From Alistipes senegalensis (GTDB lineage Bacteria; Bacteroidota; Bacteroidia; Bacteroidales; Rikenellaceae), in the NCBI GenBank assembly GCA_023665825.1, contig JAMPDE010000001.1:349760-386265 (forward strand): a stretch of DNA of 36,506 nucleotides, written 5' to 3'. Numbering within the stretch: position 1 is the first letter of the stretch; the number at the start of each line of letters is the position of its first letter. Below, piece by piece: positions 9,394 through 36,506 of the stretch. The translations under genes were made by a program, and so were the position numbers. Under the pieces are notes generated by a model. It searched no databases. It was not told the origin of the DNA and saw nothing but the letters and a program-made list of their open reading frames with translations.

Positions 9394-9450
9394 CGGCGCG
9401 TTGCAGGCCGGTCGGTGTTTTCGGGCGATTTGTCGGTTTGGCGGGAATGT

Positions 9451-9534
9451 CGTATCTTTAACTTCGTTTTAGATACTCCGTCTCGGCAAAATCAAGCTAT
9501 CGCTTGCTTCTGCGCTCGACTTTTCGTATCTTTG
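9451..9534 (+). promoter_or_regulatory. 84-bp promoter element, copy 1
   Basis: The element has GTATCT (9452-9457), its inverted copy AGATAC (9471-9476), a block TCCGTCTCGGCAAA (9477-9490), and a promoter ending in TATCTTTG (9527-9534) with TTG at 9504-9506 and a 20-base spacer. The loop between the inverted arms contains ACTTCGTTT. A second copy lies at 26489-26571. It places the transcription start about 15 bases before the glucosaminidase ATG at 9557. Confidence 0.7.
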
Positions 9535-24579: not shown

Positions 24580-24606
24580 GAATTTCGGATTAAGGTATTT
24601 GTTGGA

Positions 24607-24614
24607 CAAAGATA
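24607..24614 (-). promoter_or_regulatory. -7 box of the manC-murF promoter
   Basis: Minus-strand TATCTTTG (24614-24607) lies 27 bases upstream of the manC ATG. No TTTG -33 box is found at the usual spacing. Confidence 0.5.
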
Positions 24615-24635
24615 AAAATAATTCACAATTTTATT

Positions 24636-24678
24636 AGCGCTACGGACGGTTTTTCGGTTTCGTAAGGTTGGGAAGCGC
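24636..24678 (+). repeat. Dispersed repeat bounded by AGCGCTACGG and GGAAGCGC, copy A
   Basis: The unit starts AGCGCTACGGACGGT (24636-24650), has a T-rich centre and ends GGTTGGGAAGCGC (24666-24678). It is preceded by TTTTATT. Copies B (35906-35947) and C (36368-36409, inverted) share both ends and a similar length of 42-43 bases. Terminal GCGCT and AGCGC can pair, so each copy can fold. Confidence 0.65.
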
Positions 24679-24738
24679 ACTCACCGATGCAAAAAAATTC
24701 GCAATTATTGTGCGATGCCGGCGGCGGGCATAAAAATA

Positions 24739-24766
24739 GGGACGCCCGCTTTTCGGCGGGTGTCCC
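24739..24766 (-). terminator. Hairpin terminator after the LRR gene
   Basis: GGGACGCCCGC (24739-24749) pairs with GCGGGTGTCCC (24756-24766) over 11 bp, including one G-T. On the minus strand the hairpin is followed by TATTTTTA, as expected for an intrinsic terminator of the LRR gene, which ends 39 bases earlier. Confidence 0.8.
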
Positions 24767-24804
24767 TTGTGTGGCGACTTTTGTCGGCCGCAGGGCGTGC
24801 GGCG

Positions 24805-26163
24805 TCAGTCCTTGTATTCGATTTGCGTGTTCGGGTGGATATATTTTTCGTCGCGATTCCCGTCGTTGATACCTTCCAGCACCCAGCCGGTTTTCAGGTA
24901 AAGCGTTTTCAGCGATGTCATGAAACAAGAGAGAGTGCCGTTACTTCCTAAATTTGTCATGCTGACATCGAGTGTCGTCAGTTGATTGTTTTCGCACTGC
25001 AAACTGGTTAATTTCGTGTTTTGGCTGACATCGAGAGACGTCAGTCGATTGTCGCCGCAACTCAAATCGGTTAATTTCGTGTTTTTGCTGACATCGAGGG
25101 CGGTCAGTTGATTGCTGTTGCAACTCAAATCGGTTAATTTCGTGTTGTTGCTGACATCGAGGGTGGTCAGTTGATTGTAGCCGCACACCAAATCGGTTAA
25201 TTCCGTATTCTTGCTGACATCGAGAGCGGTCAGTTGATTGTTCCAGCAATTCAAATAGTATAATTTCGTGTTTTTGCTGACATCGAGGGTTGTTAGTTGA
25301 TTGTCGTCGCACCGCAAATCGGTTAATTTCGTGTTTTTGCTGATGTCGAGGTTTGTCAGTTGATTGTTATCGCATTCTAAATCGGTTAATTCCGTATTCT
25401 TGCTGACATCGAGTGTAGTCAGATGATTGCGGTAATTCACCGCACTACTCGCAATATAGCCGCAATCCAACGAGGTTAATTTTGTATTTTTGGTAACATC
25501 AAGCGAGGTCAGTTCACAGCTGCTGCAAAGTAAAGTAGTTAATTCGGTGTTCTTGCTGACATCGAGTTTGGTCAAGGGATCGCGGTAGCAACATAAATAG
25601 GTTAATTTCGTGTTTTTGCTGACATCGAGGGCGGTTAGCTGGCGGTTGTCGCCACAACTCAACCACGTTAATTCCGTGTTATTGCTGACATCGAGGGAGG
25701 TCAATTTATTGTCGCCGCACCACAACGTGGTTAATTTCGTGTTTTTGCTGACATCGAGGGCGGTCAATTTATTGTCGCTGCACCACAACTCGGTTAATTT
25801 CGTGTTCTTGCTGACATCGAGGGCCGTTAATTTATTGCATGTGTAGTTGCCATTGCTGTTGTATTTATAGCCGCAATTCAAATCGGTCAGTTCCGTGCAA
25901 TACTCGATACCTTCCAACGATTCGATTTCCATGCCGGGACAGCGGATTTCGGTAATTGCGGCGGCTTCGGCGGGCGAAATGCCGCCGTCCTTGTTCGTGT
26001 CGAAGTTTTCGACCATGTAGGCGGCGAACTTGGCATCGGGGAACGAAATGTTGCCTTTCGGGTCGAGCGGCGTCCGGTTGGGGTCGGGCACTTCGTCTTT
26101 CGAGCAGGCGACCAGCGACCCTGCAATCAGCAGGGCGGCCAACAGTTTGGGTAAGTGTTTCAT
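24805..26163 (-). CDS. Leucine-rich-repeat lipoprotein with an EF-hand, probably surface exposed
   Basis: The 452-residue protein has a signal peptide with lipobox LVAC (Cys20) followed by SKDE, an acidic tail resembling the lipoprotein export signal that sends Bacteroidota lipoproteins to the cell surface. A complete EF-hand calcium loop is at 55-66 (Asp55, Asn57, Asp59, Gly61, Ser63, Glu66). About 14 leucine-rich repeats of mostly 21 residues follow (110-405; consensus LTxLDVSKNTxLTxLxCxxNQ), then a short C-terminal segment ending in IEYKD. Such LRR proteins usually bind proteins or glycans; the ligand is unknown. The gene is AT-richer than its neighbours and stands alone, with a terminator behind it. 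Confidence 0.9.
   Translation of the reverse strand: MKHLPKLLAALLIAGSLVACSKDEVPDPNRTPLDPKGNISFPDAKFAAYMVENFDTNKDGGISPAEAAAITEIRCPGMEIESLEGIEYCTELTDLNCGYKYNSNGNYTCNKLTALDVSKNTKLTELWCSDNKLTALDVSKNTKLTTLWCGDNKLTSLDVSNNTELTWLSCGDNRQLTALDVSKNTKLTYLCCYRDPLTKLDVSKNTELTTLLCSSCELTSLDVTKNTKLTSLDCGYIASSAVNYRNHLTTLDVSKNTELTDLECDNNQLTNLDISKNTKLTDLRCDDNQLTTLDVSKNTKLYYLNCWNNQLTALDVSKNTELTDLVCGYNQLTTLDVSNNTKLTDLSCNSNQLTALDVSKNTKLTDLSCGDNRLTSLDVSQNTKLTSLQCENNQLTTLDVSMTNLGSNGTLSCFMTSLKTLYLKTGWVLEGINDGNRDEKYIHPNTQIEYKD
24948..25836 (-). repeat. 63-bp coding tandem repeats of the LRR gene
   Basis: About 14 near-identical 63-bp units encode the leucine-rich repeats, seen on the plus strand as recurring GTTAATTTCGTGTTTTTGCT then GACATCGA. 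One unit (about 25420-25510) is longer by about 9 codons. Such arrays can change copy number by slippage or recombination. Confidence 0.85.
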
Positions 26164-26258
26164 AAAAACAATTGGGATTTTGAGCTGCCGTCGACCCCTT
26201 GCGGCATTTTTATTAAAACGGAAAGTGTGGAGCCGGATTTCGTTTATCTAACGGAGGC

Positions 26259-26382
26259 TGTGGAATGCCCAGACAACAATAAACGATACAAATACCCCAC
26301 ACTTGAACAGACAAGTATGGGGTACCGGTCTGAACAAGTAGTGAGTGTAATTCGTCGTCCTGTTGCCCTGAAAACTTCCACA
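26259..26382 (-). ncRNA. Candidate structured RNA (unassigned)
   Basis: The 124 bases fold into one long irregular hairpin. The base is TGTGGAA (26259-26265) with TTCCACA (26376-26382); next come CAG (26270-26272) with CTG (26368-26370) and CAACA (26274-26278) with TGTTG (26361-26365); the tip is TACCCCA-ACTTG (26293-26305) with CAAGT-TGGGGTA (26312-26324). Several positions that are A-C or C-A mismatches on the plus strand (26300/26317, 26279/26360, 26273/26366, 26268/26372, 26269/26371) become G-U pairs on the minus strand, so the RNA is probably minus-strand. A -7 box (26457-26450) lies upstream. It could be a free small RNA, with a loose resemblance to 6S RNA, or the leader of the LRR gene 96 bases downstream. 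Confidence 0.4.
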
Positions 26383-26427
26383 TTCCCATTAGAAACAGTG
26401 CGAAAACACTTTCACTAAAAATATGTC

Positions 26428-26457
26428 TGTCCGCAGCGGGCGGACACGACAAAGATA
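26428..26457 (-). promoter_or_regulatory. -7 box and start-site hairpin upstream of the candidate RNA
   Basis: Minus-strand TATCTTTG (26457-26450) would start transcription near 26443. A perfect 7-bp hairpin, TGTCCGC (26428-26434) with GCGGACA (26440-26446), would form the 5' end of the transcript. No TTTG -33 box is seen. The rest of the 440-base gap 26164-26604 holds the candidate RNA and the 83-bp element; I see no convincing gene. Confidence 0.45.
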
Positions 26458-26488
26458 GGAATTAAATCCTTATTCCCGATTATTTTTT

Positions 26489-26571
26489 CGTACCTTTCAC
26501 TTCGTTTAAGGTACTCCGTCTCGGCAAACGCCAAATAAATTTGGGTTTGCGCGCGGCTTTTCGTACCTTTG
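26489..26571 (+). promoter_or_regulatory. 83-bp promoter element, copy 2
   Basis: This copy matches 9451-9534: GTACCTT (26490-26496) with inverted AAGGTAC (26508-26514) around CACTTCG, then TCCGTCTCGGCAAA (26515-26528), then TTTG (26540-26543), a 20-base spacer, and TACCTTTG (26564-26571) as the -7 box. Where copy 1 has T in all three related motifs, this copy has C (or G on the inverted arm). It drives pssA, with a predicted start about 25 bases before the ATG. Confidence 0.7.
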
Positions 26572-26604
26572 CCCCGCTGTATGCCGACTAATGTCCGAGT
26601 ACCG

Positions 26605-35947: not shown

Positions 35948-35977
35948 TCTCGTCCAATTCAGAATTCAGAATTATTG

Positions 35978-36026
35978 GCGACGCTTTGCGTCGCGCGGGC
36001 CGCAGCCTCCGCCAGCGGAGGCCCGC
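35978..36026. repeat. Hairpin plus 34-base GC-rich repeat, copy 2
   Basis: GCGACGC (35978-35984) and GCGTCGC (35988-35994) form a tight hairpin with a 3-base loop. It runs into the second 34-base GCGCGGGCCGCAGCCTCC repeat (35993-36026), which ends GGAGGCCCGC as in copy 1. Just before it, AATTCAGAATTCAGAATT (35957-35974) is a short AT direct repeat. Confidence 0.6.
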
Positions 36027-36150
36027 CACTTGCGTGTCGTGCCGTCCGCAGTCTGCGCCCCGCAATGACCATTTTTCATTTAGCGACGGCGCAGACGACT
36101 GTCTGATACCCGACAACCGTCTATCGCGCTTAACCCCCTTTTTTTCAATC

Positions 36151-36176
36151 GCACTTTTTGTTCCGTCAAAAAGTGC
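36151..36176. repeat. Perfect 10-bp hairpin
   Basis: GCACTTTTTG (36151-36160) pairs with CAAAAAGTGC (36167-36176) around TTCCGT. The type resembles extragenic palindromes found around bacterial genomes. It may act as a terminator or a repeat unit; no gene ends nearby except the MATE gene 260 bases upstream. Confidence 0.55.
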
Positions 36177-36230
36177 CAAAAACCTCTCCGACGATGTCTC
36201 CGCCTACTGCGTGCGGCCTAACGCTGGCTT

Positions 36231-36506
36231 CGGGCGCCTATCGCGGGTTTGCAAGCAAACCGGCCCCTCCGCCGGACGCTTTTAGTCCGCACTCCGTTTA
36301 ACGGCTCCGACATCCGGTCGGATTCATCGGTGCCGCTGACGCGGCAATGTTTTTATTAAAGGTCAGAGCGCTTCCCACCGTCGGAAACCCCACGACCTCC
36401 CGTAGCGCTAATAAAATCCCGCTCGGCAAAAAAGGCGTAAAGAAATCAAGCCGTAAAAGCGTATGAAAACGGGGACGGTTTGCTTGCAAACCCGCGAAGT
36501 CGCCCG
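36231..36506. repeat. Inverted repeat pair enclosing copy C of the AGCGCTACGG repeat
   Basis: A 22-base sequence at 36241-36262 (TCGCGGGTTTGCAAGC then AAACCG) recurs as its exact reverse complement at 36476-36497; weaker similarity extends to 36231 and 36506. Each arm holds a palindrome GGTTTGC/GCAAACC. Inside, at 36368-36409 in inverted orientation, lies copy C of the AGCGCTACGG...GGAAGCGC repeat. The 614 bases from 35893 to the window end show no credible gene. Confidence 0.6.

Follow-up and report, generated by a model that had tools for sequence, protein, structure and literature searches.

A dispersed leader RNA with two exclusive predicted folds precedes an LRR lipoprotein-like gene in Alistipes senegalensis

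The DNA analyzed here (the window) is a stretch of 36,506 nucleotides from the Alistipes senegalensis contig JAMPDE010000001.1. It carries an LRR lipoprotein-like gene and the structured RNA which leads it, placed between two genes presumed to be manC and pssA from Pfam matches (NTP_transferase and ManC_GMP_beta-helix; CDP-OH_P_transf). The features of the interval are listed in Table 1. A first-pass annotation had placed a structured RNA upstream of the LRR gene with selection for minus-strand pairing, and this was confirmed by folding against shuffled sequence. Positions 26164-26446 gave -96.5 kcal/mol on the minus strand (z -5.11, 0/200 shuffles equal) as opposed to -80.0 kcal/mol on the plus strand (z -2.21, 5/200 shuffles equal), which favors the minus strand, and covariation was found in 104 copies. 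The conserved RNA extends beyond the 124-base core originally described, from approximately 26446 down to 26186, and nearly reaches the LRR start codon at 26163. Its proposed role as leader of that gene is also supported, and most other copies likewise precede same-strand ORFs.

Table 1. Features of the manC-pssA interval, with positions in the window.
Feature	Position	Strand	Basis
manC-pssA interval with RNA-gene unit, 2025 bp	24580-26604		84-482 bp in 28 relatives
LRR lipoprotein-like gene, 452 aa, led by RNA	24805-26163	-	ORF; Pfam LRR_4
H3, the 3' hairpin, whose loop d (26192-26198) can pair with c (26229-26235)	26186-26206	-	7-bp match in own copy (L025); swap tests
Predicted fold B hairpin (b:c, e:f and H2), then interrupted U tract UUUCCGUUUU (26224-26215)	26208-26304	-	Folding
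Strand c, CGGCUCCACACUUU; partner a (fold A) or b (fold B), 5' part with loop d	26222-26235	-	Swap tests
Strand f, GAUAAACGAAAU; partner e in fold B	26237-26248	-	Swap tests
P2, 3' strand	26247-26254	-	Covariation
H2 hairpin; loop 26259-26265 kisses H1; also tip of fold B hairpin	26254-26270	-	Covariation, swap test
P3, 3' strand	26271-26278	-	Covariation
Strand e, AUCGUUUAU; pairs in fold A with the P4 strand, in fold B with f	26279-26287	-	Swap tests
Strand b, GUGUGGGG; partner b' locally or c in fold B	26295-26302	-	Swap tests
b', local partner of b, within the 12-bp tip of the first-pass annotation	26315-26322	-	b:b' swap test, z 8.3
P4, 5' strand; partner e in fold A	26352-26355	-	Covariation, swap tests
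P3, 5' strand; partner 26271-26278	26361-26368	-	Covariation
H1 hairpin; loop 26376-26382 pairs with H2 loop	26370-26387	-	Stem swap z 9.5; loop-loop covariation
P2, 5' strand; partner 26247-26254	26386-26393	-	97.9% of cells paired; both-side changes in 7/7 pairs
Strand a, GAAAGUGU; with c closes fold A (P1)	26406-26413	-	Covariation, swap tests
H0, 5' hairpin, copy-specific sequence	26429-26445	-	Sequence; listed by terminator scan
-7 promoter box TATCTTTG, Bacteroidetes type	26450-26457	-	Read in sequence; transcript start expected near 26446

A -7 box and a 5' hairpin had been claimed at 26428-26457, and both are present. The box was labelled according to the Bacteroidetes -7 consensus, and a TAxxTTTG box was found no more than 75 nt upstream of the RNA in 98/102 close copies and 80/104 diverse copies. 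The position of H0 holds a different hairpin in other copies of the same genome (by eye). In the divergent copies L033, L034, L279, and L298 the TAxxTTTG box is replaced by GCCTATGA, perhaps another promoter type (by eye). A plus-strand ORF of 87 aa (26155-26418) was considered as a possible protein; its 16-residue DUF1421 match scored 18.6 bits against a curated cut-off of 22.8 and was taken as chance.

The minus strand of 26164-26460 carries one of many dispersed copies of a leader RNA. A DNA search of the same genome gave 16 matches which grouped into 11 places, each followed by a gene-sized ORF in the direction of the conserved strand. Covariance model 1, built from these 11 places, found 22 places in the genome (13 with strong scores, and another 9 that diverge more, at 41-57 bits) and matched 40 of 61 genomes searched, comprising 33/37 of the genus (own genome included) and 7/24 from other families, with 0 to 26 matches per genome in the genus under stricter filters. 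Covariance model 2 was built from 102 copies; the E-values of both models are rough. It matched 66/295 genomes of the order and 12/296 of a phylum sample (own, one of the same order, nine of the same class and one of the same phylum), the latter being weaker at 39-60 bits apart from the own genome. Among the at least 114 matching stretches listed, most named records bore the label Alistipes or Rikenellaceae, and one was a cultured Bacteroides acidifaciens. Alistipes sp. An66 and B. acidifaciens DSM 15896 are among the carriers. In B. acidifaciens (L218, 5780-5040, minus strand) two leaders stand in tandem, the first before a tiny reading frame and the second before an EcsC-family gene.

That the RNA could not be matched to a known family was upheld when Rfam 15 covariance models were searched. 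No family scored above its gathering threshold in the window, and at E<=1 none matched the RNA in 16 loci (five plus eleven); in the set of eleven a single match touched a copy of the RNA, EGFOA-assoc-1, which lay on the opposite strand at chance level (17.4 bits, gathering 224.5). The suggestion of a 6S-like RNA was not supported. The Rfam entry for 6S RNA is RF00013, and neither 6S nor 6S-flavo gave a match; the 22 matches in a single genome and the position before the start codons of many unrelated genes also speak against it, and differ from the one or two stand-alone genes per genome expected of 6S. The likeness lies in a promoter of its own and a long irregular hairpin in one fold, while kissing loops, a pseudoknot and the leader position set the RNA apart from both families. 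6S-flavo is listed as RF01685 in PMC2864571, which also names the Bacteroidetes structured RNAs Bacteroidales-1, Flavo-1, and Bacteroides-1. The Rfam models of these three do not match; the comparison covered RNAs with an Rfam number in the table of that source, where Bacteroides-2 and GUCCY-hairpin have none. A description of this RNA was not found in the literature searched, including passages of PMC8040213, PMC12247911, PMC11109978, PMC10994844, and PMC2864571; some of it may stand among the 3161 candidates of PMC8040213.

The elements of the compact fold, fold A, run in the order H0, a, pseudoknot strand, P2, H1, P3, pseudoknot strand, P4, b', b, e, P3, H2, P2, f, c, U tract, H3, and start codon. 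Covariation was examined in alignment A5, which has 104 rows from 100 hand-chosen loci and omits most close copies as well as L073, L074, L079, L084, L092, L095, L297, and L299-L301, of which L299 and L300 are one palindromic contig-end artefact. All modelled pairs of fold A (32/32) had changes on both sides and 95.3% of cells were paired, with a covariation score of 0.792 compared with 0.205 ± 0.007 after shuffling and 0.05-0.09 when partners were slid. The loop-loop pairs between H1 and H2 were 98.6% paired with both-side changes in 7/7. Since A5 was aligned to the fold A model this result leans to fold A; the partner-swap tests use sliding windows and are less dependent on the alignment. 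These gave z 13.7 for the pseudoknot (UCCUU/AAGGA), 9.5 for the H1 stem, 6.1 for the H2 stem and 8.3 for b:b', as statistics computed without a tree, and GTGTGGGG had a local partner of at least 5 bp in 94 of the 100 close copies which carry it. A plain extension of P2, P2b, was also considered, and because the H1 and H2 stems surround its strands the kissing loop is the better reading; P2b was kept in the models.

Two strands have two partners each, c pairing with a or b and e with the P4 strand or f. Over the 104 copies the swap tests gave z 9.2 for a:c, 14.3 for b:c, 12.7 for e:f, 11.1 for P4, and 13.6 for c:d, and 0/2000 swaps reached the real partners. With swaps restricted to within-class exchanges the values were 7.7 to 11.8, again with 0/2000, and for 73 copies less than 60% identical (one per 60%-identity cluster) they were 7.3 for a:c, 13.0 for b:c, 11.2 for e:f, 9.2 for P4, and 11.0 for c:d, with 0/5000. 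As these tests use no tree, relatedness is dealt with in part only. Swapping partners between copies lowers pairing in every case, so that selection has apparently kept both pairings of each exclusive set. The first-pass annotation had proposed two exclusive folds formed by CAAGT arms, and the extra arm at 26335-26339 is indeed there. A second exclusive fold is supported by the swap tests, but the strands which exchange partners are those of the two sets a/b/c and e/f/P4 and not the CAAGT arms. By its sequence the RNA would be able to adopt two exclusive folds with an expression platform, as is expected of a riboswitch, and it has a conserved structured domain in 5' leaders, a further feature of this class.

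The hairpin of fold B is followed in most copies by a U tract. A T run of at least five was found at the end of c in 78/104 copies compared with 2.4% of control windows, and the T fraction was 0.50-0.97 at the eleven positions from -3 to +7 around the end of c and 0.16-0.37 at +10 to +49. On this count 78 of the 104 copies carry a putative intrinsic terminator, a stable hairpin with a U tract directly behind it. The copy in the window has a stable hairpin (26208-26304, -30.3 kcal/mol, z -3.56, 0/200 shuffles equal) and an interrupted tract, UUUCCGUUUU, whose longest T run is 4. A simple terminator scan, which does not allow for so long a loop, did not report the fold B hairpin and listed H0 and a hairpin containing b:b' instead.

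Past the U tract, a perfect complement (G-U allowed) to the seven bases of c which precede ACACUUU begins 20-48 nt downstream in 69/102 close copies, including the one in the window. After one shuffle of each copy a perfect 7-bp match was found in 0/102. The partner, d, sits in the loop of H3 (by eye), and by the swap tests c:d is specific to its partner throughout the order. As d comes after the U tract, only read-through RNA would contain it, which fits fold A, and for the same reason c:d cannot itself decide termination. We infer that c:d is a latch of the read-through RNA, and the 33/102 close copies in which the perfect 7-bp match is absent count against this.

On balance we favor the view that the RNA is a cis-acting leader of approximately 260 nt working as a riboswitch-type transcription attenuator, and consider this probable by a modest degree. 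By design we rate it as riboswitch-like, a putative riboswitch. The sequence-supported states of such a device would be fold A, compact, with P1 (a:c), P2, P3, P4, the H1-H2 kissing loops, the pseudoknot UCCUU/AAGGA and a local b:b' hairpin, and the exclusive fold B, a long hairpin of b:c and e:f with H2 at its tip and the U tract behind it in most copies. Fold B would halt transcription while the polymerase crosses the U tract. If a small molecule, a protein or a condition held fold A, strand c would stay with a and the polymerase would continue; H3 would then offer loop d to kiss the freed 5' part of c, and the read-through message would be latched in fold A before the start codon. Several findings count against attenuation. 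The U tract of the copy in the window is interrupted, the simple terminator scan did not report the fold B hairpin, an H2 stem of at least 4 bp is present in only 73/104 copies, and with pseudoknots left out the stability of fold A exceeds that of fold B by a median of 13.5 kcal/mol (91/104 evaluable, 7/91 within 5 kcal/mol), so that fold B would need kinetics or a factor which unfolds A in order to win.

The stability of fold A and the interrupted tract could also be taken to mean that the leader fold acts post-transcriptionally, on message stability or translation, with fold A plus c:d as the on state and fold B as the off state, or that it is a ribozyme, the U tract being incidental. Strong covariation of a c:d pair shortly before the start codon is in keeping with this, and as kissing loops and pseudoknots are common in ribozymes and riboswitches alike, they were counted for it. 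The U peak, however, falls exactly at the end of strand c over 104 copies, as in the terminator of an expression platform and not as in a translation switch, and we regard post-transcriptional action as rather unlikely. We find it more doubtful again that the RNA is mainly a stand-alone, trans-acting small RNA released at the U tract (6S-like in the first-pass version), with the genes behind it expressed by leakage. Its own promoter box and terminator-like end would suit such a function, but c:d couples the RNA to sequence past the U tract, a same-strand ORF nearly always follows, there are many copies per genome, and Rfam gave no 6S or 6S-flavo match.

A same-strand ORF of at least 50 codons starting within about 330 nt was found behind 98/102 close copies and 87/92 further copies, the four close copies which lacked one by this rule being L062, L102, and one each of L064 and L126. 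The start lay 45-70 nt past strand c in 59/98 and more than 150 nt past it in 18/98. In some close copies (L042, L100, L115, L120, L144, L154, and others) the leader and the lipoprotein gene seem to be separated by a short reading frame, the chosen gene beginning about 180-260 nt after c (by eye). An export-like start was assigned to 90/98 of the downstream proteins (36 lipobox-like, 54 hydrophobic, 8 other), where the ORF choice and the export label are crude rules and some proteins are mislabelled. Pfam analysis of 91 of the 98 proteins (omitting L028, L104, L123, L129, L139, L140, and L154) gave 71 families in total, led by BspA-type LRR_5 (26), LRR_8 (16), DUF4988 (10), and BACON (8), and LRR_5 genes follow the RNA in other bacterial families too (L307, L313). 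No common pathway emerged from the 71 Pfam families of these 91 proteins, in contrast to the genes of most metabolite riboswitches, which counts against an attenuator of that type. Two further roles were rejected. A regulon of one gene family was discarded as the RNA was present at only 2/30 best loci of a recurrent downstream family, the KNGS-type genes. An anti-phage defence role was discarded as too few PADLOC matches were found for it to be general, with 10 families at E<=1e-5 among 91 proteins and each in one or two members (top matches PD-T4-3, 7e-65; RT-Protease_XI, 2e-22; pVip, 7.7e-15). Small proteins of a shared type, marked by a motif like LKNGxIxxFxP or LNNGxIxxFxP, follow the RNA in other families of the class (L326, L327, L329, L337; by eye); the downstream protein of L337 had no Pfam match.

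In the relatives the interval between manC and pssA is short. pssA was found in 59/61 genomes and the gap was examined in 29 of the 58 relatives with pssA. manC lies divergent to pssA at 84-482 bp in 28 of these 29 and was not found in the remaining one. The RNA was present at this stretch in none of the 29, including 28/28 with both genes, and because the gap is without the RNA-gene unit in 28/28 the leader and gene seem to move together; they look like a module that moves. On a viral contig one copy, L271, is accompanied by an LRR lipoprotein gene, with integrase genes close by. The membrane-type protein that follows the RNA in L310 starts with QLHEQYAxNNN, as does the gene downstream of the viral-contig LRR gene, possibly as shared cargo (by eye).

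These findings could also be those of a mobile DNA element, its fold serving recombination and the gene being its cargo; attC is a single-strand recombination site of this kind. Occupation of the manC-pssA interval here and in 0/29 relatives examined, a leader at 2/30 best homologous loci of KNGS-type genes, the copy adjoining an integrase on a viral contig, and the range of 0-26 matches per genome within the genus would all suit it. It remains the least probable account in our estimation, as the fixed orientation to the gene, the promoter, the U tract, and the two exclusive folds all belong to a transcript. In addition, BLAST of ten loci of the same genome revealed only the leader as common to all copies. 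Some pairs shared more, into the gene in L010, L013, L014, and L017, and upstream between L009 and both L011 and L017. Visual inspection of the ORFs at the 8-kb B. acidifaciens locus L218 showed no recognisable recombinase.

Returning to the attenuator, passage of the leader and gene as a module would place unrelated, mostly exported-protein genes under one common control. As a tentative extension, the RNA could be a Bacteroidia-wide, undescribed riboswitch class for one common signal which brings newly acquired surface-protein and accessory genes under that signal and carries a kissing-loop latch behind its terminator. Were it a switch, one signal would govern as many as 26 proteins, most of them exported, in a single genome of the genus (the maximum number of matches per genome) and the ligand would be open to direct search, while the module would be a route by which captured genes receive ready-made regulation. 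Large, strongly conserved RNAs with no Rfam match which are widespread in a major gut group are rare. The RNA shares with metabolite riboswitches that have terminator platforms a complex conserved 5' domain, exclusive terminator and antiterminator strands, a U tract, and many loci; it differs in lacking a common pathway and an Rfam match, in having a kissing pair past the terminator, and in apparently travelling together with its gene. The c-di-GMP (GEMM) riboswitches likewise occur in many copies per genome before diverse, often surface-protein genes, but have another fold, and the RNA described here has no Rfam match to them. The rAID arrays of Bacteroidales immunity genes, as presented in PMC12247911, have conserved intergenic motifs and resemble our case in that a repeated element of Bacteroidales stands before varied small genes, a likeness by description and not by motif sequence, taken as a lead only. 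A rAID would have co-oriented genes in an array with a tyrosine recombinase next to it; inspection by eye of one B. acidifaciens locus showed neither array nor recombinase, and integrase genes lie near the copy on the viral contig.

Several other repeats were observed in the window. Beside manC, 24627-24690 is an intergenic repeat (about 60 bp) found dispersed in the genome; nearly all of the 47 matches which 24610-24830 gives in the same genome fall there. Other intergenic repeats, at 35955-36506, are common to the loci L009, L011, L013, and L017 of this genome. A 13-bp direct repeat, TTTTCGTACCTTT, is found at 26485-26497 and 26558-26570; the pssA -7 box falls within the second of these, which may therefore mark the right edge of the inserted unit. 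A sequence of 41 bp is repeated at 90% identity at 9450-9490 and 26488-26528.
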